Made by a program: the position numbers and the translations under genes
Notes under the pieces: generated by a model
Database searches by the model: none
Told to the model about the DNA's origin: nothing
The model's input: only the letters and a program-made list of their open reading frames with translations
Shown: in pieces, positions 18,597 to 38,690 of the stretch
How positions within the stretch are numbered: position 1 is the stretch's first letter
How the letters are laid out: each line of letters starts with the position of its first letter
Assembly: GCA_030248295.1 (NCBI GenBank)
Contig: JASANH010000916.1
Span: forward strand, 62,001-126,000
DNA from: Mesodorylaimus sp. YZB2_4
Lineage: Eukaryota; Nematoda; Enoplea; Dorylaimida; Dorylaimidae
Reading direction: 5' to 3'
Length of the DNA: 64,000 nucleotides

Positions 18597-19956
18597 AGCA
18601 AAAAAAACCAAAAAAAGTGCCTCTTTTTTTTCCCCCCTTATTTTCTTCTTTTTTTTCTTTTTCTTTTTTTTTTTTTTTTTTCTTTTCTTTTTTTTTTCTC
18701 CTTTTTTTTAAAGGGAGAGGGAAATTTTTTTTTGGGGCTTTTTTTGGAGGGGGAGGGAGGGGGAAAAATCATTGAGTTTTTTTAAAAACGGGGGGACCGC
18801 CCTCCCGAATCAAACAGACGGAGGGGGGGGGGGGGCGGCAATCCCCCCCCCCCCCGTTGTTAATGACAAAGCCCTGGCCCGAGCCCCCATTTTTTTTTCT
18901 GTCCGCCGGTTTTTCCTTCTGTCCCCCCCCCCCCTTTTATGTATCACTTAGAGAGCACCCGGAGGGCCCCGGGGGTTCCTTCCTCCCTCTCCTGATTTTT
19001 CCTCCCCTCTTAATTACCCAACGGGCCCCTTTTTTTTTTTTCGCGCGGGGGCTCCAATTTTTTTTTTTTTTTTTTACGATTTGCTTTCTATCCTCCCCCC
19101 CCCTTTCGTATGTCTTTTTACCCCACCCCTTTTCCTCTTTTATACCTTTCTTCTTCTTTCACAATGTCATTCCCTCTCTCTTCTCTCTCTTCCCCAACCA
19201 ACCCGTTTTACCCTTTTTTTCCCCGTTAGGGGGTACATTCAATCCCTTTCCCTTTTTTCTTTTTCGCTCGCGGGTTCTTCCTTTTCTTTTTTCTCTGGCG
19301 GGAGGGGGTTTTTTTTTTTTTTTTTTCCCCTTTTTTCGCCTCATCCCTTCCTCCCCTACCTTCTTTAGATTCCTTTTTTTATTAATATCTCCCCCCTTCT
19401 TTTTTCTTTCTCTCCTTCCTGGTTTTTTTTTTTTTTTTTCCTTTTTTTTCGCACGCCACCCCCTTTTTTTTTTTTTTCGTGCGCGCCACCCCACACGATA
19501 ATATGCCCTCCCTTCTTCCACTCCTTTCTTCTTTTTTTTTTTATTTAATTGAATACAAACTATATTATGGGGGGGGGTGTGTTTTTTTTTTTTTTCCCTT
19601 TTCCCCCCCCTCTCTTTTTTTTTTAATTTTTTCTTCTTTTAAAAAAAAAGAAAGAATAATAAAACCAAGATCAACAGTATTCGCCCCCACCCCCCCCCCA
19701 CGACGGACGAATATCGGGTTCGCGAAAAAAAAGAAAAAAATTATTATTAATTATAATAACAGAAATATTATTTTTTTTTTGCTCTTTTCTACTAATTACA
19801 ACTTATATTATATTTTTTTCTACACTTTTTTTTTTTTATGTTTTATGATTTTGATATATATGTAAAATTAATAATTTTTTTTTTTTTCTACTTTTATATT
19901 ATAAAAATAATTATAAATTTTTTTTTATCAATATTTAATTAATTTTTTAATTTATT

Positions 19957-19990
<34 letters not shown>

Positions 19991-19993
19991 CTT

Positions 19994-20029
<36 letters not shown>

Positions 20030-20046
20030 CTTTTTCTCTTTTTTTT
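18597..20046 (+). repeat. 1.4-kb homopolymer-rich polypyrimidine tract
   Basis: The plus strand is almost entirely runs of T and C with short G-rich interludes (18718-18850) and a few A-runs (19640-19760). It ends in about 100 bases of nearly pure T (19960-20050). Long open frames inside it (for example 18857-19501) encode only F, P, S and L strings and are not genes. It may be a true low-complexity tract or a stretch of poor consensus. Confidence 0.75.
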
Positions 20047-20522
20047 TTTATTTAAGTGTCGCAGGCACGTTCCTTCAATTTCTTCCACCCTATCGTCAAA
20101 ACTCTGACATTCTAGCATAAAAAGTTGAAGTTCATAACTGTTAGTGTCAAAGTTCACAACTGAAAACCAGATCAGGCTGGTGGCTGGTGGTGTTGAGCTT
20201 ATAATTAAGAGTTTATCTCGCATCAAAGATAGCAGAAAAGGTAAAATTTTACTGCAAATGTGCCCTAAATTAAGGAGCTACAGATGAAAAAAGCTGTTGA
20301 ATATGGAGCGGATCGATTTGAAACAGCAGAAGAAACTTTATTTATTCGTGTTTTGCTTAAGAGCAACATCGAATTTCCGAGGATGTTCTAAATATTAGGG
20401 AAATGGCAGGAAATAAAAATAAACATCTAAATCTCATGAAATCATCTTGGCTACTTTTATGGTTTAATTTTGTTTCCAATTTGCCTTGTTTGCGATGTTG
20501 AAATCCCAACGTTGACGTTGTT

Positions 20523-23040: not shown

Positions 23041-23961
23041 CTAAAATTTGAAAATCGCCGTAGGACTTAACAAATTAGCGACAGCTTTGCGATAAGGACT
23101 GCCCTTTCTAAAGTAGATCAATAAATTAGTTGCGCTGTGAAGCGGTTGCAAAACCCACAAAAATGGTGCACACTCCGCCAGCCACCCATCACTGGCGTGT
23201 GCATCAATGATCAATATCAGGATTCCAGGGACTGCCCACATCATAAAAGCATTGACTGAGACCAATGCCAGAAGGCGAGCAGCTTTTTTATTCCTGTTGA
23301 TAGCAGTCCTGTGAGCATTGGTTTTGGTGCGGCTATTTTGCTGAATTGTTACAAGATTTCGACGTTTCAGAACAAGAAGTGTCATTATCATTATCACCAC
23401 ACTGACGCTGACAAAAAGAGGAGCGCTGTAGTAATCGAAAAGGTGCACTGGCTCCGTGTTGGCCTCCCAACAGAACTTTGTGGTCATTCTGTCAGGGGGC
23501 ATGACTGCCAGGGTGTCGTGCGTGAAATAGGACCAGACCCCAGTGACATACAACAGCATGAAGCCTATTATGGCGCCAGTGTACTTTGATCCCAGTCGAT
23601 AATAGAATTTTGTGGCAGTGACTGACAGAAATCGATCACAGGCGATCAGTAATATCATCATCGATCCGGAATGGTAGGCGATCGGGAATAGATTGGTTGA
23701 TGGAATGTAGAAGCATTGGCGGGCAGGGATCAGGGTCGTGGTGTCATTGGAGAGGATCAGGTCCAGTTGGTACGCGCCAGACACCAGAAATGCCAAGCCA
23801 TTCATGAAATCAGTTGCTGCCAGGGCGGCGGCCAGGATGTGCGCATTGTAATGCAACTCTTTACATTTGGCGACAACGTAAATAAGAATGCTGTTTGCCA
23901 CAATTGCACTGGCGCCAAAGATTATATAAAGAATTTGCTGAAGAATATCGGATGAAAACAT
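23041..23961 (-). CDS. rhodopsin-like GPCR, nematode chemoreceptor type (copy 1)
   Basis: This intronless 7TM protein has 306 residues from the ATG at 23961. I prefer that start to 24033 because the paralogue at 36225-37100 begins at the matching methionine. TM1 (GASAIVANSILIYVV) and TM2 with the conserved LAATD acid are clear. A TM3 cysteine (RQCFYIP) pairs with one in loop 2 (TKFCW). TM3 ends in CDRFLSV instead of DRY, as in worm Srsx-type receptors. TM6-TM7 and a basic C-tail (FRKGSPYRKAV) are intact. The likely role is sensing small molecules or peptides; the ligand is unknown. About 150 residues of its centre are nearly identical to the paralogue. Confidence 0.85.
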   Translation of the reverse strand: MFSSDILQQILYIIFGASAIVANSILIYVVAKCKELHYNAHILAAALAATDFMNGLAFLVSGAYQLDLILSNDTTTLIPARQCFYIPSTNLFPIAYHSGSMMILLIACDRFLSVTATKFYYRLGSKYTGAIIGFMLLYVTGVWSYFTHDTLAVMPPDRMTTKFCWEANTEPVHLFDYYSAPLFVSVSVVIMIMTLLVLKRRNLVTIQQNSRTKTNAHRTAINRNKKAARLLALVSVNAFMMWAVPGILILIIDAHASDGWLAECAPFLWVLQPLHSATNLLIYFRKGSPYRKAVANLLSPTAIFKF

Positions 23962-24033
23962 GGCTAGAATGCTGAAAAGGATTGCGTTCATTATTTTATA
24001 CCCGATACGAAAGATCAGTAATGGAGAGCTCAA

Positions 24034-25664
24034 CTGCTATGACACTATGACAAAGTGATGTGACGTTGACCCCAGCTGAAAAATTGACACGTGTAAGAAA
24101 ACAGACCCTGTCCTTTCGGATCGGCAAACAGGGACCATATTTGGGCATCTAAGGTTCCAAGAACCATCTTGGCTCTGGGGTCTTGGGTTCCTGGCATGCT
24201 AGGCTACCCGGGGTCACAATTTTGCTTTAATGCCTGACGGAATCCATCACTGGCGCGCGCGTTGGGTCTCTCCGATTCCAATCAGGAGTGGCTGGCTAAG
24301 AATGTTGAGTCAGCAAATTCGAAATACTGGTGCGCGCAGATCTACGATGGCTCTACGCCTAATAATTTATCGACAGGGGGTGTAAAAAAAAATTTTGTAC
24401 CGGGGTCAATTTTCCAGGTGCATTCTTCTGATGAGGTCCATAATGACCAACATAAATTTCTAGTTTGCACAGTTTGTATCTGAGACCTTGTCGCATTTTC
24501 AGGAAAAGATTCGAACAAAGAATTTTCTTGTCCTTATTCTTTTACGCAATCCTTCAGAATGGTACTGAAAACAGGGAATAAATTGAAAGTCGTCAAATAA
24601 GACCTCAGGAGACCTTCTCAATCGACACATAGAATGAGCTGATTGTCCCTTCACTGAGCCCTGTTCTGCGGATCTATTATACGGATTTTAAGCTCAATTT
24701 TTTCGCCGTTTTTATCCAATTTGCATGCCAAAGGTTCCCAAATATCCAAGGCATATGTTATGCCACTTGTCCCAGTACCAAATTCGAAATCTACCTTCGT
24801 GCCGTGCCTTGCTAGCGGGTGATTCATTCGAGGGGACAAACTATGGTGTGCATTAACAGCGATTTGTGTTCAAGCTGTTTGAAGGAGTCAATTCACAAGA
24901 TTGCTTCTAAAATATAAGCCTGGACCACAATCGCCTTCGAGTAAAAGCAGAATTCAAAATGAAAAATGCCAGAAATGATTTCTAAGAAATCGAATTCACA
25001 GGATACAGCTCTTGTTTAAAAAATTGCAACGGCCTTGCAGATTGGTCAGACGAGCCGATGGATGTCGAGCAGACACTTTTTCCGTTTTCATGCCAAAGCA
25101 CCCTAAAAACTTTTGTTCCTGCTAAAAGTTGTAAATGGCGGGAAACCTATACTTCTACACTAAGTCCCATATCGGTTCAGCCAGCAGTTTGGGCCAAAAT
25201 CCCCTTCCGGCCAGAGTTCCTTTCCGGCCAAAGTCCCTTTATGGCCAGTCTGCAAGGCCTGCCAGCCATCAAGTCGAACTTGACAAATTCAAAAATTGTA
25301 ATTTTCCCAGGTGCGAAGGAAAGTTTTGTGCAAAACCTCTGGCCAACTGGTCAGTTGTGGTCAGCGCCTATAGTCCCAGAACTTTGTTAAGTACTTCTGA
25401 ATTTTTTGATTTTTCGAGGGAAAACCCCCCAAACCTGAGTGTTAGTAACTAACTCAAAGCTTGAAACCCGAAAACTGAGTTTGTAAAGAGCTCTGTGTGC
25501 TTTTCTTAACGCTCAGGCTCCTAACCACATAAAAATTTAAAAAAAACCTGCCAGGACTTTCGGCGCTGACGACGGCTGATCAATTAGTCAGACGCCTCTG
25601 CTATTTTGTGCAGAGTTTTCTTTTGCACCTAGCAACAAACTGTAAGTTTTGATTTTGTCAAGCG
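24034..25664. other. intergenic, no gene supported
   Basis: Only short ORFs. The word cctttccggccagagt and variants repeat around 25200-25250, with no wider structure. Confidence 0.4.
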
Positions 25665-25865
25665 AGACTTAACCCCCTCTTGCTCAAATTTGCAGACTTG
25701 TATTCTTAAGTACAGGGTCCGCACTTTAGAAGGCGATTTTGATCGATATCTCCAGAATCGATCAAAATGTGGGGAAAAATAGTGTTCTCGGATACCAATT
25801 CCCGCGTGCTGGGGTCAAATTTCATCGGAAGGTGCTCAAATAGCGCCGAAAAACCCTCCCGGAAC
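25665..25865 (+). repeat. dispersed repeat, copy 1
   Basis: Aligns with about 31900-32110: shared gattttgatcga, ctggggtcaaatttcatcg and gcgccgaaaaa in the same order and spacing. It abuts the left end of the MULE element. Confidence 0.6.
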
Positions 25866-26118
25866 TATTATCTGTTTTCTTTGGGTTTGTGTGCGGCCGT
25901 TTGTTGCAAGTGGCTCGTCTCAGGCAAAAAGGCGCATCAAAAAGGGCGCATGGGTAAAAAGAGCGTAAGTGAATACCGAACAGTTATTCTTTTTAAATAC
26001 AAAACTATGTCGGACAAATACATGAGCGTAAAAGCGAAATCGAAATGAAACACATTAAATTCAATGTGGCATCAAAATCGAATACGCACTGTCCATTGAA
26101 CTACACAATTCACTCATC

Positions 26119-27483
26119 TCAAAAATTGTAGTTACGAGCAAGACCCCTCAAATAATCAATCTGATTTCTGTTATCATATTCGGCAACGATGCGATGAATT
26201 CGCTCCGCTAATTCTCGATAACGCTGGCGTCCTGGTGGAGGTTGATGACCAGCGACGTACTGCTCAATTTTTGTTTCGTTTAAATTATGCTCTTGTCTCA
26301 AGGAGCCGATAAATTTAAAATATCGTTGGATGATGTGCCCCGACCAATTCCAAAAATCCTCGGTTCCAACCTTCCACTGAGTTGTTTGTCTTCGCTTGAC
26401 CACTGTTTTTGCCTCGTGGCAGTTCCAGAGTTCAATTGGAAATATTGGATTACGCCTCACTTCTCGCCGATTGGGTCTACCAACCCACGTGTCCTCAAAG
26501 TAATCGACGACGGGCTGAGCCTCTACGGGCAAATGATCGGATAATTCCTCGAAGGCATCGACGACGTCAGGTGGCGGAACAAACGCTAGAGCTGGCAACA
26601 TTCTCATTTGGAGCGCAAAATCTTCATCACTTGCGTATCGTGTTTGCAATCCCGGTGATTGAATTCGGCGCCATACCCACTGTGAGAAATGGAAAAAGCA
26701 TCCGCGGCGTGCTGCATTGGGAAACTCAGAGGCGAAGCTATTGATTGATGCAAGCTCGAAATCGGAAATTATCGATTGCGGATTCAAATTCGGATTTAAA
26801 TTTCTTAACTCAGCCAGCAGACGCGTGTATGTCGCCTCAGTCTTATCTGGCAATAAAGCAAATACTGATGGAATGACTTTATGATAATGAACTCCGTTAA
26901 TCGTATTACAACTGCTCAAATAAAGGAGGTGCCGTTTTGAAAGTACCATCCGCGAACCAATTAGGACTTCTTGCCAGCAACTCCAAATTGCGTTGTGTAG
27001 AAAAAACAAGAATTCGATTTGGACCCTGACCGATATCTCGTAGCAGGAACGGCTCGCCAGCCAAAGTTTGTTGATATTCAGGGGGGAATAACCAGTTCCT
27101 CGAGTGAATGAGGGTTTGATGGAGCAGCAAGAATACTGTACCTCTGCGAACGCGTTGAATAGCTTTCGTGGTATCGAGGGCTATTGACCTTGAAAAGCGG
27201 CTGACAACCCCATTGTGGGGACAGCAATGACTTGATGAGTCGAATCTTGAGTGGCAGCAGCTCGATCTTTCATATTAGCGACCGTTCTTTTCACGAATGC
27301 TTGAGCTGGATCGGGCGCATGGTTGTGATCGCAAGGCTGCTTTGTGATGGCATTTCTGGCTTTTTGCATTCGGGCCAAACAGTGGCCTTCGCTTTGCTTG
27401 CACAAATTACATTTCCAGTCGACTTTTTCTCCGATAGAACATTCCCTTTCGATAGATATATCCGTTATGCAAAAGCTGATCAT
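26119..27483 (-). pseudogene. MULE transposase with FLYWCH-like zinc finger, frameshifted
   Basis: Three successive frames make up one protein. Frame 1 (27181-27483) has a WKCNLCK...CLAR...CDHNHAP pattern typical of FLYWCH fingers. Frame 2 (26906-27130) holds the start of the catalytic domain, ending FADGTFKTAPPLFEQL. Frame 3 (from about 26905 down to 26119) continues with INGVHYHKVIPSVFALLPDK, then SDFELASINS, CFFHFSQ and RMLPALAFVP. The D of FADGTF and the D of SDFE are expected catalytic acids. A single-base change near 26908 separates frames 2 and 3, and another disruption lies near 27130-27180. The family cuts and pastes the element between the inverted termini. This copy is inactive unless the shifts are sequencing errors. 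Confidence 0.8.
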
Positions 27484-27725
27484 GGCCTTTTTGACTTCGC
27501 ACGAATTCTAGAGGCATGATTCGAGAGTCGCCACTGACTAGTTGGAATGCAATATGCTGTGGTCACCAGTCCATAAATGGCGCACATGGAGCCGTGTATT
27601 ATCCTATGCGTCTTTGTTCCTTTATTACCCTCTTTTGCATTTCTTCGCCCTTTTGTCTATGAGCCCTAAACTGATGCGCCCTTTTTGGATGCGCCCTTTT
27701 CGCTGCGCCCTTTTTGCGTGGATTC

Positions 27726-28382
27726 CAAGTGGCTCTGACACATGGCTATACTATATGTGATAAATCACTGGCTCGCACTGCCGCTCGCGCCCCCTAGCGG
27801 TATGAATCAGTCACCGTGGGCACGAAACGGCGTGAAGGCTCGGAAAGGAGTGATAACAAATGAACAGTGCCAAGAGGCTTGAAATCAGCCATATATGGTT
27901 AATTGCCAAGGAAATTGGAATATGGTAATTTAGCGAATATTTTGAATTTGCCGCCGATCAGGTTTGGTGTCTTGGTGTCTGCTAGAAGCGCCAAAAAGTA
28001 ACCATCAGCCAGACTATGGTCGGCCAGGCTATTTGCTGTCGCGATTCACTAGACTTAATCACGAAGCAACGAAAGAACGAGGATCCGACCATAGTCTGGC
28101 TGATGGTTACTTTTTGGCGCTTCTAGCAGACACCAAGACACCAAACCTGATCGGCGGCAAATTCAAAATATTCGCTAAATTACCATATTCCAATTTCCTT
28201 GGCAGTTAACCGTATATGGCTGATTTCATGCCTCTTGGCACTGTTCATTTGTTATCACTCCTTTCCGAGCCTTCACGCCGTTTCGTGCCCACAGTGACTG
28301 ATTCATACCGCTAGGGGGCGCGAGCGGCGGTGCGAGCCAGTGTTTTATCACATATAGTATAGCCATGTGGCAGAGCCACTTG
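27726..28382. mobile_element. foldback element: 298-bp inverted arms, 61-bp loop
   Basis: The left arm 27726-28023 is the reverse complement of the right arm 28085-28382. The arms have equal length and about eight mismatches by eye, without a net indel. The loop 28024-28084 is unrelated. The outermost ten bases of the palindrome coincide with the inner edge of the MULE right terminus (gagccacttg). No ORF is conserved. See findings. Confidence 0.9.
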
Positions 28383-28423
28383 CACCAAACGGCCGCGCAC
28401 AAACCCAAAGAAAACAGATAATA

Positions 28424-29383
28424 CATACTGTACTGTATATATAGTCTTCGTCTGTAACGGCTGGCTGAAAGGGGACTCTAGTTGAACTAGGAATTTTTTG
28501 GCCGAAACGTGGCACAACAATCAGGTAGGTAGCCATTTATCTGCCGATAATTGTATTTGCATCACTAATTGCGAGTTCATTCATTCATTCATTCAGTCGC
28601 CTGATATTGGTACAAAACGAACTCTATCAGCCTGGCCCTGGACGCGTAGGCGAAGAGCACGCGTAAGACCAACACAACCAGAACTGCCTGTGTTTGAGCC
28701 CGCGCATTTAGTTTTTGGGCGAACCTGCGAAGACAGGACATTCTTAAATGGACGACGTTTCATACCAGCGATTGCCTGCTCGTGTTTTTGACCCACATGC
28801 AGTATCTGACTTCTAAAAGTTAATGTCCTGGGAATATTTCGTAAGACAGAGAACAGAGTCGTTAAGGTCGACTGGTTATACCGAATGCGCCAATACGGAT
28901 GTGCACTAGGCGAACCCATCGGCAGTTGAATTCCTTATCGTTAGGGTACTGTAGACTGGTTGAAGGGACATTCGTGACACAACACAAGGAGGCGACGGTT
29001 GTCGTTCCCGTAGGCTGCCGCTTACGTCCGCTACAACAAACCGATCGTGGGTGAATTTATGGCGACTTAAATCTGTGTGGGTGGGGCTGCTCCTACACTG
29101 ATGTAATTTCCCAAGTTTATCCCTATTTATTTGAAAAAATACTCACAGGTCACTCATAAATATGACACTAGCGATCTGTAAAACAGTGCACACATAAAAT
29201 ACTGTTTCCTGCCATAAATCTTACGGTAGATAGAAAAAATATCGCTGCGCATCAGATGTTAATCTAAGGCCCTACCTGAATGGTTCACCTGGACGACCCT
29301 GGAATTCTAGGCCAAGGCACAAAGGTTTGATCGAATACACAGTATCATTATCTTCATATTGTATGGCCAAATATGTATTTTTG
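28424..29383. other. intergenic
   Basis: Contains a (ATTC)n microsatellite near 28576-28596. No gene is supported. It is the 3' flank of the minus-strand glycosyltransferase. Confidence 0.4.
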
Positions 29384-31899: not shown

Positions 31900-32110
31900 T
31901 CACCCTTTCCAAGTCAAACTTGCGGACTCATATTCTACAGCAGGGGTCCACACTTTGGAAGTCGATTTTGATCGATTTTTTGATCGAACTGATCGAAATA
32001 TCGCGAAATTCCATGGTAGGTTCTCGGGTACCATGTCCCGCATGCTGGGGTCAAATTTCATCGAAATCCGTCAAACGATGCCCGAATGGCGCCGAAAAAA
32101 CCTTCTCAGA
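31900..32110 (+). repeat. dispersed repeat, copy 2
   Basis: Partner of 25665-25865. This copy is slightly longer in the middle because of extra gatcga words near 31975-31998. Confidence 0.6.
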
Positions 32111-36224: not shown

Positions 36225-37100
36225 TTACAGACCGCCGCACGAAAAGGACTCTCTTTTGCAAAAGATAAGCACATTATTTGTGCTGTGAAGTGGTTGCAGC
36301 AACCACAGAAATGGTGCATATTCGGCCAGCAAGCTGTCCGCAGAATATGTATCGATGATCAGTAAGATAATGGCTGGGATCACGGACATGGTGAAAAGGT
36401 TGAATGAGATCAAGGCCAATAAAGGAGCAGCTTTGGCATTCCTGGCCACGGCGATGGTGTGCACATTGGCACTGTTCTGCTGTGATGACACCCGGTTCCT
36501 GCACTTCAGCGCCAGCAGGGTCATTGTCATAATGAAGACACTGGCACTGACATAAGCACTCGTGCTGTAGTAATCGAAAGTGTGCACTGGCTCCGTGTTG
36601 GCCTCCCAACAGAACTTTGTGGTCATTCTGTCAGTGGGCATGACTGCCAGGGTGTCGTGCGTGAAATAGGACCAGACCCCAGTGACATACAACAGCATGA
36701 AGCCTATTATGGCGCCTGTGTACTTTGATCCCAGTCGATAATAGAATTTTGTTGCGGTGACTGACAGAAATCGATCACAGGCGATCAGTAATATCATCAT
36801 CGATCCGGAATGATAGGCGATCGGGAATAAATTGGTTGATGGAATGTAGAAGCATTGTCGGGCAGGGATCAGGGTCGTGGTGTCATTGGCCAAGATCAGG
36901 TCCAGTTGGTACGCGCCAGATACCACAAATGCCAAGCCATTCATGAAATCAGTTGCTGCCAGGGCGGCGGCCAGGATGTGCGCATTGTAATGCAACTCTT
37001 TACATTTGGCGACAACGTAAATTAGAATGCCATTTGTCACGAGTGCACTGACGCCGAAAATTATATGAAGAATTTGTTGAAGGATTTCAGGCGAAAACAT
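36225..37100 (-). CDS. rhodopsin-like GPCR, chemoreceptor type (copy 2), C-terminal frameshift
   Basis: This intronless frame of 291 residues is paralogous to the gene at 23041-23961. From KELHYNAH through EPVH (TM1 end to loop 2) only about three residues differ. From TM5 onward the two are clearly diverged. Conserved features are LAATD in TM2, CFYIP, CDRFLSV at the end of TM3 and the loop-2 cysteine. The frame ends in an atypical CKRESFSCGGL. One base out of frame the DNA reads AKESPFRAAVCNK and stops, which matches the helix-8 region FRKGSPYRKAV of copy 1. A single-base indel at about 36259-36262 therefore truncates or alters the tail. It could be a young pseudogene, a functional variant, or a consensus error. 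Confidence 0.8.
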   Translation of the reverse strand: MFSPEILQQILHIIFGVSALVTNGILIYVVAKCKELHYNAHILAAALAATDFMNGLAFVVSGAYQLDLILANDTTTLIPARQCFYIPSTNLFPIAYHSGSMMILLIACDRFLSVTATKFYYRLGSKYTGAIIGFMLLYVTGVWSYFTHDTLAVMPTDRMTTKFCWEANTEPVHTFDYYSTSAYVSASVFIMTMTLLALKCRNRVSSQQNSANVHTIAVARNAKAAPLLALISFNLFTMSVIPAIILLIIDTYSADSLLAEYAPFLWLLQPLHSTNNVLIFCKRESFSCGGL

Positions 37101-38690
37101 CGCTTTGACTAGTCACTAGAGTTCAGGGGAGAAAAAACGGCGCAATTTTTTAAGTGCAAGGAGCGGGCACACTTGTGCGTCTAGTCTCCAAACTGAGAAA
37201 CATCTTATTGGTTGCATCGACCCTCGGCCGTTTTCGTCGCGGTCGATGTCGGGGTCGATGGTGGCCAGCCCCGGCCGAACACTACCATAAACCTCGGTCA
37301 TGATGCTTTGGTGGGGTCGAGGATAAAGGAGGCGGGACACATCGCAACATCATGTGTTAGGTTGGCTCATACAAAATACATCGGTGCCACTACTGACACG
37401 AGGACAGGGAGACAGAGAAGTTTTAACCCTCTAAGTCGCAAGGTATCATCCAGATGTGTTTCAAAATTGCCCATAAAATCAGATCCACAGATCACTTACT
37501 AGATGGCAAAAAGTGAAATCGCGATTCGGATCGGCTTACCACTCATCGATTATAGATTATCGATATCCGAATTTTCCGTGAGCATTAGTGGGATACACAT
37601 GAATGTAGTCACAAAAATGACACTTTCACGCGATTCTACTCAGCAAAATACCCCATAAACGACAATTTCCCCGAGATAAATGGACCCGCATTCATCCTTT
37701 GATCAGGTACAAATATCTGAGGGAAAAAGATCAAAATTTTGGGCATCGATATCACCAATACGGCAGATAATAAAAATAAATGATCGAATGGGTGCCGCAA
37801 AGTAAGTGCTGCGTCACGTAAAATAAGCAAAAACGTTGCAAAAATAAGTCCACGGAGTCAGTGAATTGACCAGAAAAATTGCCGATATTTCAAACAATCG
37901 ACTATGATCCACTATAAATTTTTTTCTTCAAAATTCACCGTACGTATGATCAATCGAAAGCTCAGACCACGATCAGTGCGAAAACACCATTGAAAACACG
38001 CGAACGTTATTTGCGCCGCGAGCAGACAAGTCGAAAAAATGAGCTGCCTATTGCAAAGTGGGGCTCACAGCCCGCAGGCCGCCGCACAAAAGCCACGAGA
38101 CTGTAAGCCATAAAAATTGGTGTAAGTGGCCTACAAAAGGCGCGCTTTCGAATAGACATCTCGAAAATCGCGAGAAATGATTCGTTTCGCATTTACGTGT
38201 GTAAACAGACAGTCGTTTTTTCAGCCAAAAATTTGGCGTTTGCGACCCAAAGGGTTAATGAGGAATAAATTAGTATCAGTCTGGCATTGAGCGATTTTTT
38301 TCATGCCAGGTGGAATGAGTCTAAAAATTCAAATTTTCAATGGCATGAATTCCATTTTCCAGTGGTCTTTGAAACTTCAGGAAATGAAAAATGAAGAAGA
38401 TTTTTTAAATATTTATCGCATGTCTCGATAAATATCGACTCCCACGCGCTTTGCGCCAAATATTTTCAGCTCCGGGAGCTCCTTTAAAACTTTCAAGGGA
38501 ATAAAAAACCTACAATTCGTCAGCATACTTTGTATTTGACCCATCGCGGAACAGGAATTCAACGCAGAAACAACCCAGTTTTGCTTCCATGGCTTCAAAT
38601 TGAGGTCTCTTCTCGACTATTCTGCTATCCTTATGTTGACTAGCAGGTGGATAGACAGAGGCAACGTTTGAAACAAGACTGCTTACGTGC
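37101..38690. other. intergenic, 5' flank of GPCR copy 2
   Basis: No gene supported. The sequence becomes AT-rich and repetitive-looking without a match elsewhere in the window. Confidence 0.4.

Follow-up and report, generated by a model that had tools for sequence, protein, structure and literature searches.

In this work we analyzed the hairpin located at positions 27726 to 28382 of a 64,000-nucleotide stretch of nematode DNA (the window), and conclude that its core is a copy of a dispersed foldback family of the P superfamily, referred to here as A. The locus as a whole is an ordinary transposon nest, and its unusual part is a one-sided target motif, TGTGCGC, in the flanks of family A. The nest probably has three layers: a transposon with terminal inverted repeats (element B) inserted in host DNA, element A placed by a hotspot present in both TIRs of B together with recombination, and a MULE that arrived last, A having been moved in trans. 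The features, in window positions, are the following.

25866 to 25916, plus strand: outer part of the left TIR of element B, which resumes at 27736 to 27740 past the MULE; delimited with the B TIR family genome-wide
25907 to 25916, plus strand: left copy of the MULE target duplication, CAAGTGGCTC
25917 to 27725, minus strand: MULE inserted in the left TIR of B, GTCTCAGG...TGGATTC; genome copies align inside these limits
26119 to 27180, minus strand: MULE transposase ORF, stop to stop, 353 aa; Pfam PF10551, 2.5e-11
27726 to 27735, plus strand: right copy of the MULE target duplication, CAAGTGGCTC, which is the first ten bases of the left arm as drawn in the initial annotation
27733 to 27740, plus strand: 8-mer CTCTGACA left of A, the hotspot in the left TIR of B; the same 8-mer is the duplication on contig C130
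27741 to 28367, no strand: element A, P-superfamily foldback MITE, 627 bp, ends CATGGCTATACT...AGTATAGCCATG; boundary common to genome copies
27741 to 28023, plus strand: left arm of A, 283 bp, 277/283 identical to the other arm
28024 to 28084, no strand: loop of A, 61 bp, partly present in the loop of locus L010
28085 to 28367, minus strand: right arm of A
28368 to 28375, plus strand: 8-mer TGGCAGAG on the right of A, where the right TIR of B has the hotspot in inverted form
28368 to 28423, minus strand: outer part of the right TIR of element B, ending exactly at the end of A; delimited with the B TIR family genome-wide

The hairpin and family A

The foldback is confirmed at the coordinates initially reported: the inverted arms (27726 to 28023 and 28085 to 28382) are 298 nt each, 98% complementary and separated by a 61-nt loop, with 7 mismatches in place of the approximately eight counted before. 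If the MULE is discounted, each arm of the inverted repeat grows to 339 nt, and the mismatches number 9. As RNA, 622 of the 657 nt of the hairpin fold into pairs at -602.9 kcal/mol, far below the mean of -190 obtained in 10 mononucleotide shuffles, which excludes chance. No stop-to-stop ORF of at least 150 aa was found over the hairpin copy, and an Rfam scan of the whole window gave 0 matches.

The initial annotation had also proposed that the foldback belongs to a family, and this is borne out, given that a genome search with one arm returned at least 76 matches, arms being counted, from dispersed loci. The hairpin core of A starts at CATGGCTATAC. Ends could be paired in 29 of the 35 loci fetched, and 8-bp target duplications agreeing in at least 7 of 8 positions were found in 24 of the 35 (exact in 19). 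The pair chosen was the one with the best-matching duplication among the candidate ends, and the null was handled alike; when ends from different loci were paired, possibly with near-duplicate loci included, this level was reached in 19 of 6070 pairs. Six loci (L013, L014, L024, L025, L039, L043) had no usable end pair, and L029, for which the pairing was spurious (1/8), was left out of the arm and motif counts, which comprise 28 loci; the near-duplicates L020/L021 and L038/L040 were retained in the duplication, arm and motif counts. Arms of about 222-302 bp are present in 22 of the 28 aligned loci (in one of them at just 75% identity) and most spacers measure 60-135 bp, while in the other 6 loci the arms are shorter or degraded. 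Long arms, a short loop, a dispersed distribution and, in this copy, the lack of an ORF of at least 150 aa are the features of a foldback or long-TIR MITE.

A much longer relative, L009, lies on contig C862. This element is 5658 bp long, its arms of 301 and 305 bp are 98.4% alike, and it is flanked by the exact duplication ATCTTGAT. The arms of A are 87-89% identical to those of L009. Because the loops of several short A copies look, by eye, like the sequence just inside the L009 arms, these copies appear to be internal-deletion derivatives; A would be a non-autonomous, internally deleted derivative of an L009-like element, mobilised in trans by a P-type transposase.

The minus strand of L009 contains, in separate open pieces, the motifs CDEVG, CDG, DPTHCIKKFRN and QDFLERDFG, in an order that matches D, D, D(2)H and E, the signature given for the P superfamily in the available part of PMC8230255. 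The Pfam matches of the L009 pieces are weak (PF21789, 0.0065), and the middle piece matched nothing in Pfam at E up to 0.1. The transposase pieces of L009 are homologous to C199, a piece of which matches PF21787 at 1e-7, over the cut-off; among the aligned pieces, at E up to 0.1, PF21787 was recognised in 4 of 5 (best 7.8e-8) and PF21789 in 5 of 6 (best 9.4e-5). C199 was the single place recovered by a genome-wide search with PF21787. We take PF21787 and PF21789 to be P-type transposase domains. In PDB, the top match of a profile of the C-terminal pieces was 6p5a, the Drosophila P transposase, at a non-significant E of 0.77; no P transposase was retrieved from PDB with single pieces or with the middle profile, A2, which gave ribosomal and other chance matches. 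The transposase pieces scanned showed no THAP or PF12017 match, and a genome-wide search for PF12017 was without matches, as was its control. A is filed in the P superfamily, with a P-type RNase H transposase in its putative full-length member, L009, recognised chiefly through relatives, and with 8-bp duplications (7-8 bp in the superfamily) in 24 of the 35 A loci.

Element B, the insertion hotspot and the TGTGCGC word

A genome search with 28355-28480 gave 41 matches, of which 40 lie over the TIR of B (two being its own copy) and the 41st, on C266, spans only sequence outside this TIR. Inverted pairs of the TIR were present in 9 of 20 fetched loci, the two TIRs lying about 0.6-2.7 kb from each other in eight of them and 5.8 kb in one. 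In most of the paired copies the TIR runs on past CTCTGCCA into GCCGCGCACACTTGG or close variants; at this locus A starts, on both sides, where the TIR would run past CTCTGCCA. As regards a Tc1/mariner-like assignment of B, the dinucleotide TA is found at both edges of this B copy, but within the TIR itself, and a Pfam scan of 5 B ORFs revealed no transposase. A diverged repeat (73%) occupies 25684-25857 and 31914-32103, and its left copy ends beside element B; when the right copy was used as an empty site for comparison, only the left side aligned, with a hint of a single TA. The pair of TIRs at 5.8 kb (L067, C425:12300-18900) is enclosed in a large palindrome in which the ORFs of the two halves are near-identical and the outside flanks are inverted copies of each other.

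The 8-mers that flank A are related as the two ends of an inverted repeat: CTCTGCCA, the reverse complement of the right one, agrees with 27733-27740 in 7 of 8 bases, and the direct comparison gives 0 of 8. Reuse of this hotspot was directly observed in other B copies, since C130 and C87 carry A-like palindromes of 44 and 42 bp at the identical position of B, flanked by the direct duplications CTCTGACA and CTCTGCCA, respectively. A third A-like palindrome, on C11 (L072), is placed 2 bp further into B and has a poorer duplication (6/8, by eye).

In 13 of the 28 A loci the word TGTGCGC, at up to one mismatch, stops exactly 11 bp short of the element on one side, the 11 bp corresponding to 3 bp plus the 8-bp duplication; it is missing at this spacing in 15. 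For the full range of 8-20 bp, control flanks predict about 0.05 occurrences per locus. The word was first spotted by eye in A flanks, and hence the 13/28 is not independent of its discovery. Genome-wide, exact TGTGCGC was found 5-20 bases before CATGGCTATAC in 41 matches, and control searches gave none; the spacing is 11 in 22 of the 41, or in 20 of 37 once near-duplicates are removed (P 4.6e-15 against uniform spacing). Among flanks that had not been read earlier the spacing is 11 in 9 of 26 (P 1.7e-5), or in 8 of 25 (P 9.6e-5) minus one possible duplicate, a count that is independent of the motif discovery, the loci already read having been excluded by a hand-picked list. Within the 64-kb window the word is mildly common (12 against 7.9 expected).

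The second commonest spacing is 9 (7 non-redundant matches). Three loci with CATGGCTATAC elements preceded by TGTGCGC at 9 rather than 11 bases (L109, L110 and L111) suggest that the spacing is family-specific: L109 and L111 start with CATGGCTATACTTAAGG and represent a sibling family, and L110 is a 48-bp element whose duplication, GAAATTGC, lies one base from TGTGCGC. Sibling elements seem to use another fixed offset, of 1 bp.

Untouched TIRs of B read GTGTGCGC-GGC-TGGCAGAG, and a 25-base version of this target occurs in 33 places at up to 3 mismatches, 10 of them exact. Since these TIRs carry TGTGCGC, the motif predates the insertion in B and is not part of A. It is likely that the hotspot in B is due to a preference of A for sites with TGTGCGC to one side of the duplication, at a distance of 3 bp. 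Whether family A, as a P-superfamily transposon, chooses its targets directionally is, in our judgement, evenly balanced; if so, the one-sided TGTGCGC would be read by the integration complex or by a tethered protein and the cut made at a fixed 3-bp offset, in place of the symmetric, cut-centred site reported for Drosophila TIR elements.

From these observations the following sequence of events can be proposed. Transposon B would have been resident in host DNA when foldbacks of family A landed at the same hotspot in each of its TIRs, as each TIR holds TGTGCGC and, 3 bp further on, the 8-bp site that is duplicated. The two A copies would then have recombined, with loss of the interior of B, leaving one A between the outer halves of the TIRs; finally, the MULE would have entered the left TIR, such that the right copy of its 10-bp duplication came to lie 5 bp from the edge of A. 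At this locus the outer halves of the two TIRs abut A exactly on either side, with no direct duplication. A single insertion would have left one, so that two insertions followed by recombination fit the CTCTGACA/TGGCAGAG flanks. This copy of A has no TGTGCGC at the 11-bp place on either side; loss of the two inner sides would account for the absence of both the duplication and the motif. The intermediate of this scheme, a B element with an A in each TIR, was not found in the 20 fetched loci of B or at the 9 places recovered by a search for the hotspot junction.

A different history, which we regard as possible and clearly the less probable, is that one A entered one TIR of B and the symmetry arose by an interior deletion that ended in the other TIR, or by gene conversion or foldback repair that copied the TIR together with A to the opposite side. 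The deletion route has the merit of requiring just one insertion, and a spread of foreign transposons from one TIR to the other is described for Galileo in the accessible portion of PMC4168063. However, a plain deletion must stop precisely at the homologous hotspot of the other TIR without A losing a base, and the flanking 8-mers differ (CTCTGACA/CTCTGCCA), as expected of two TIRs; a conversion confined to A is still a possible course. Two further candidates were rejected: one A inserted in a palindromic remnant of B, because there is no 8-bp direct duplication, and a mirror duplication extending into host DNA, because beyond B the left and right sequences are different.

RNA interference, the MULE and the integrity of the hairpin

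Transcripts that form hairpins silence transposons, as in the case of Tc1 in Caenorhabditis elegans and Mu killer in maize. A search for RdRP genes gave 14 matches in this genome, all on contig C25, and none in 14 control genomes; with such genes present, RNA interference fed by the hairpin, if transcribed, is conceivable and could occur. It is nonetheless improbable that the hairpin serves as a source of dsRNA, a role in which read-through transcripts would fold and be processed by Dicer into small RNAs that silence family A. The near-perfect 283-bp stem and the 87-89% identity of its arms to those of the 5.7-kb L009 would suit this role as much as the RdRP genes do, but similar hairpins occur as ordinary transposon copies (arms of at least 222 bp in 22 of 28), so that the shape calls for no such function, and no stop-to-stop ORF of at least 150 aa spans the hairpin. 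Transposon biology alone explains the hairpin shape. Along about 75 kb of the contig (C25:732679-805987) the RdRP matches form three clusters, which suggests three gene copies. SL1 RNA gave 0 matches in the genome, and its control was also without a match.

The initial annotation placed the foldback on the terminus of the MULE, taking a pair of 51-bp repeats as the MULE TIRs. The foldback does adjoin a MULE, as the PF10551 domain in the ORF at 26119-27180 attests. The limits of this MULE were established by searching its own genome (145 Mb, 1067 contigs) with 25860-27730, which gave at least 76 matches; among the matches listed, self aside, all begin at or after query base 57 (window 25916) and stop at or before 1866 (27725), several of them exactly at one of these limits, so that 25917-27725 is the mobile unit. 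It therefore includes neither the hairpin nor either of the 51-bp repeats. The repeats are the TIRs of B, which form inverted pairs at 9 of 20 other loci, all nine without a MULE (a 68% MULE match lies near the unpaired locus L076). The ten bases that the outer end of the hairpin was said to share with the MULE terminus are indeed repeated at 25907-25916, but since CAAGTGGCTC flanks both edges of the MULE (10/10) they are its target duplication. Attachment of the foldback to the MULE, for which adjacency and these ten bases speak, is thus extremely improbable, and an origin of the hairpin from the MULE end was likewise rejected, the listed genome matches to the MULE being confined to 25916-27725.

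MULE target duplications are 9-11 bp long, and both class features, the PF10551 domain and a 10-bp duplication, are present here. Eight further copies of the MULE were fetched, four of them with flanks that could be judged; the flanks of L097, L100 and L102 match by eye over the 6-8 visible bases, and the match at L099 is unconvincing by eye. The MULE appears to be the youngest insertion, having jumped into the left flank of the hairpin. The nest is ordinary in itself, and this order corrects the inverted nesting of the earlier reading.

Palindromes are prone to assembly and read-through errors, but such an origin can be practically dismissed, as the initial annotation had argued, given the 7 mismatches between the arms, the different sequences beyond the nest on its left and right, and the same architecture, with target duplications, at other loci.

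Other features of the window were noted. A second inverted repeat (749-826 and 1318-1395) is more diverged, 87% over 78 nt, with its arms 491 nt apart. At 18599-20063 lies a low-complexity, T-rich stretch of about 1.4 kb, interrupted here and there by C/G runs; the GC skew over 18-20 kb is -0.2. It may represent a degenerate repeat or poorly assembled sequence. Two Srsx-type chemoreceptor ORFs (23041-24036 and 36225-37112), 13 kb apart, flank the nest; they are related, with 87% identity over a stretch of 300 nt, and are probably a local gene duplication. Receptors of this type, together with the RdRP genes, point to a nematode host.

Relation to known transposons

The relative closest in kind to A is Galileo, a P-superfamily element of Drosophila. 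According to the part of PMC4168063 available, it shares with A a P-type transposase, long foldback-like TIRs, a majority of non-autonomous copies and target duplications of 7 or 8 bp, and with this nest the presence of other transposons inside the TIRs and recombination between copies. The target of Galileo, as given in the same text, is a 15-bp palindrome around the duplication, in contrast with the off-centre, one-sided TGTGCGC of A. The palindromic 7-bp site of the GTANTAC type is absent in A, in which 8-bp duplications of varied sequence accompany the one-sided word.

The Drosophila P element has short TIRs, unlike the long arms of A, and its end begins with CATG, as do the ends of A. Both also have 8-bp target duplications (PMC3276498, in the portion available) and an RNase H-like transposase with the D(2)H motif (PMC8230255, likewise in part); the target motif of the P element is palindromic, GTCCGGAC, in the same portion of PMC3276498, and that of A is one-sided. 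In root-knot nematodes, the Mutator/foldback element Tm1 resembles A and this nest in its foldback-like TIRs, MITE-like copies and nesting, and differs from A in its Mutator (Phantom-like) transposase, its mostly 9-bp duplications and the lack of a clear target consensus, as far as the accessible text of PMC3169594 goes.

A literature search for nematode P elements and P-type foldbacks showed, among the titles listed, no nematode foldback of the P superfamily, and A is, as far as this search went, a new foldback family of the superfamily. Judged by titles and abstract openings, none of the papers listed in a search for TGTGCGC with transposons seemed related to it. In the part of PMC3276498 available, all 22 Drosophila TIR and LTR families prefer palindromic target motifs that reach at most 3 bp beyond the duplication; a one-sided, off-centre word is unlike these centred motifs, and in this respect A is a new variant. 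The one-sided target word would explain how two insertions could be directed to mirror positions of another transposon, leaving a larger foldback. If true, a one-sided word at a fixed offset would imply that the target complex is asymmetric or that a tether is bound to the DNA, and this can be tested.
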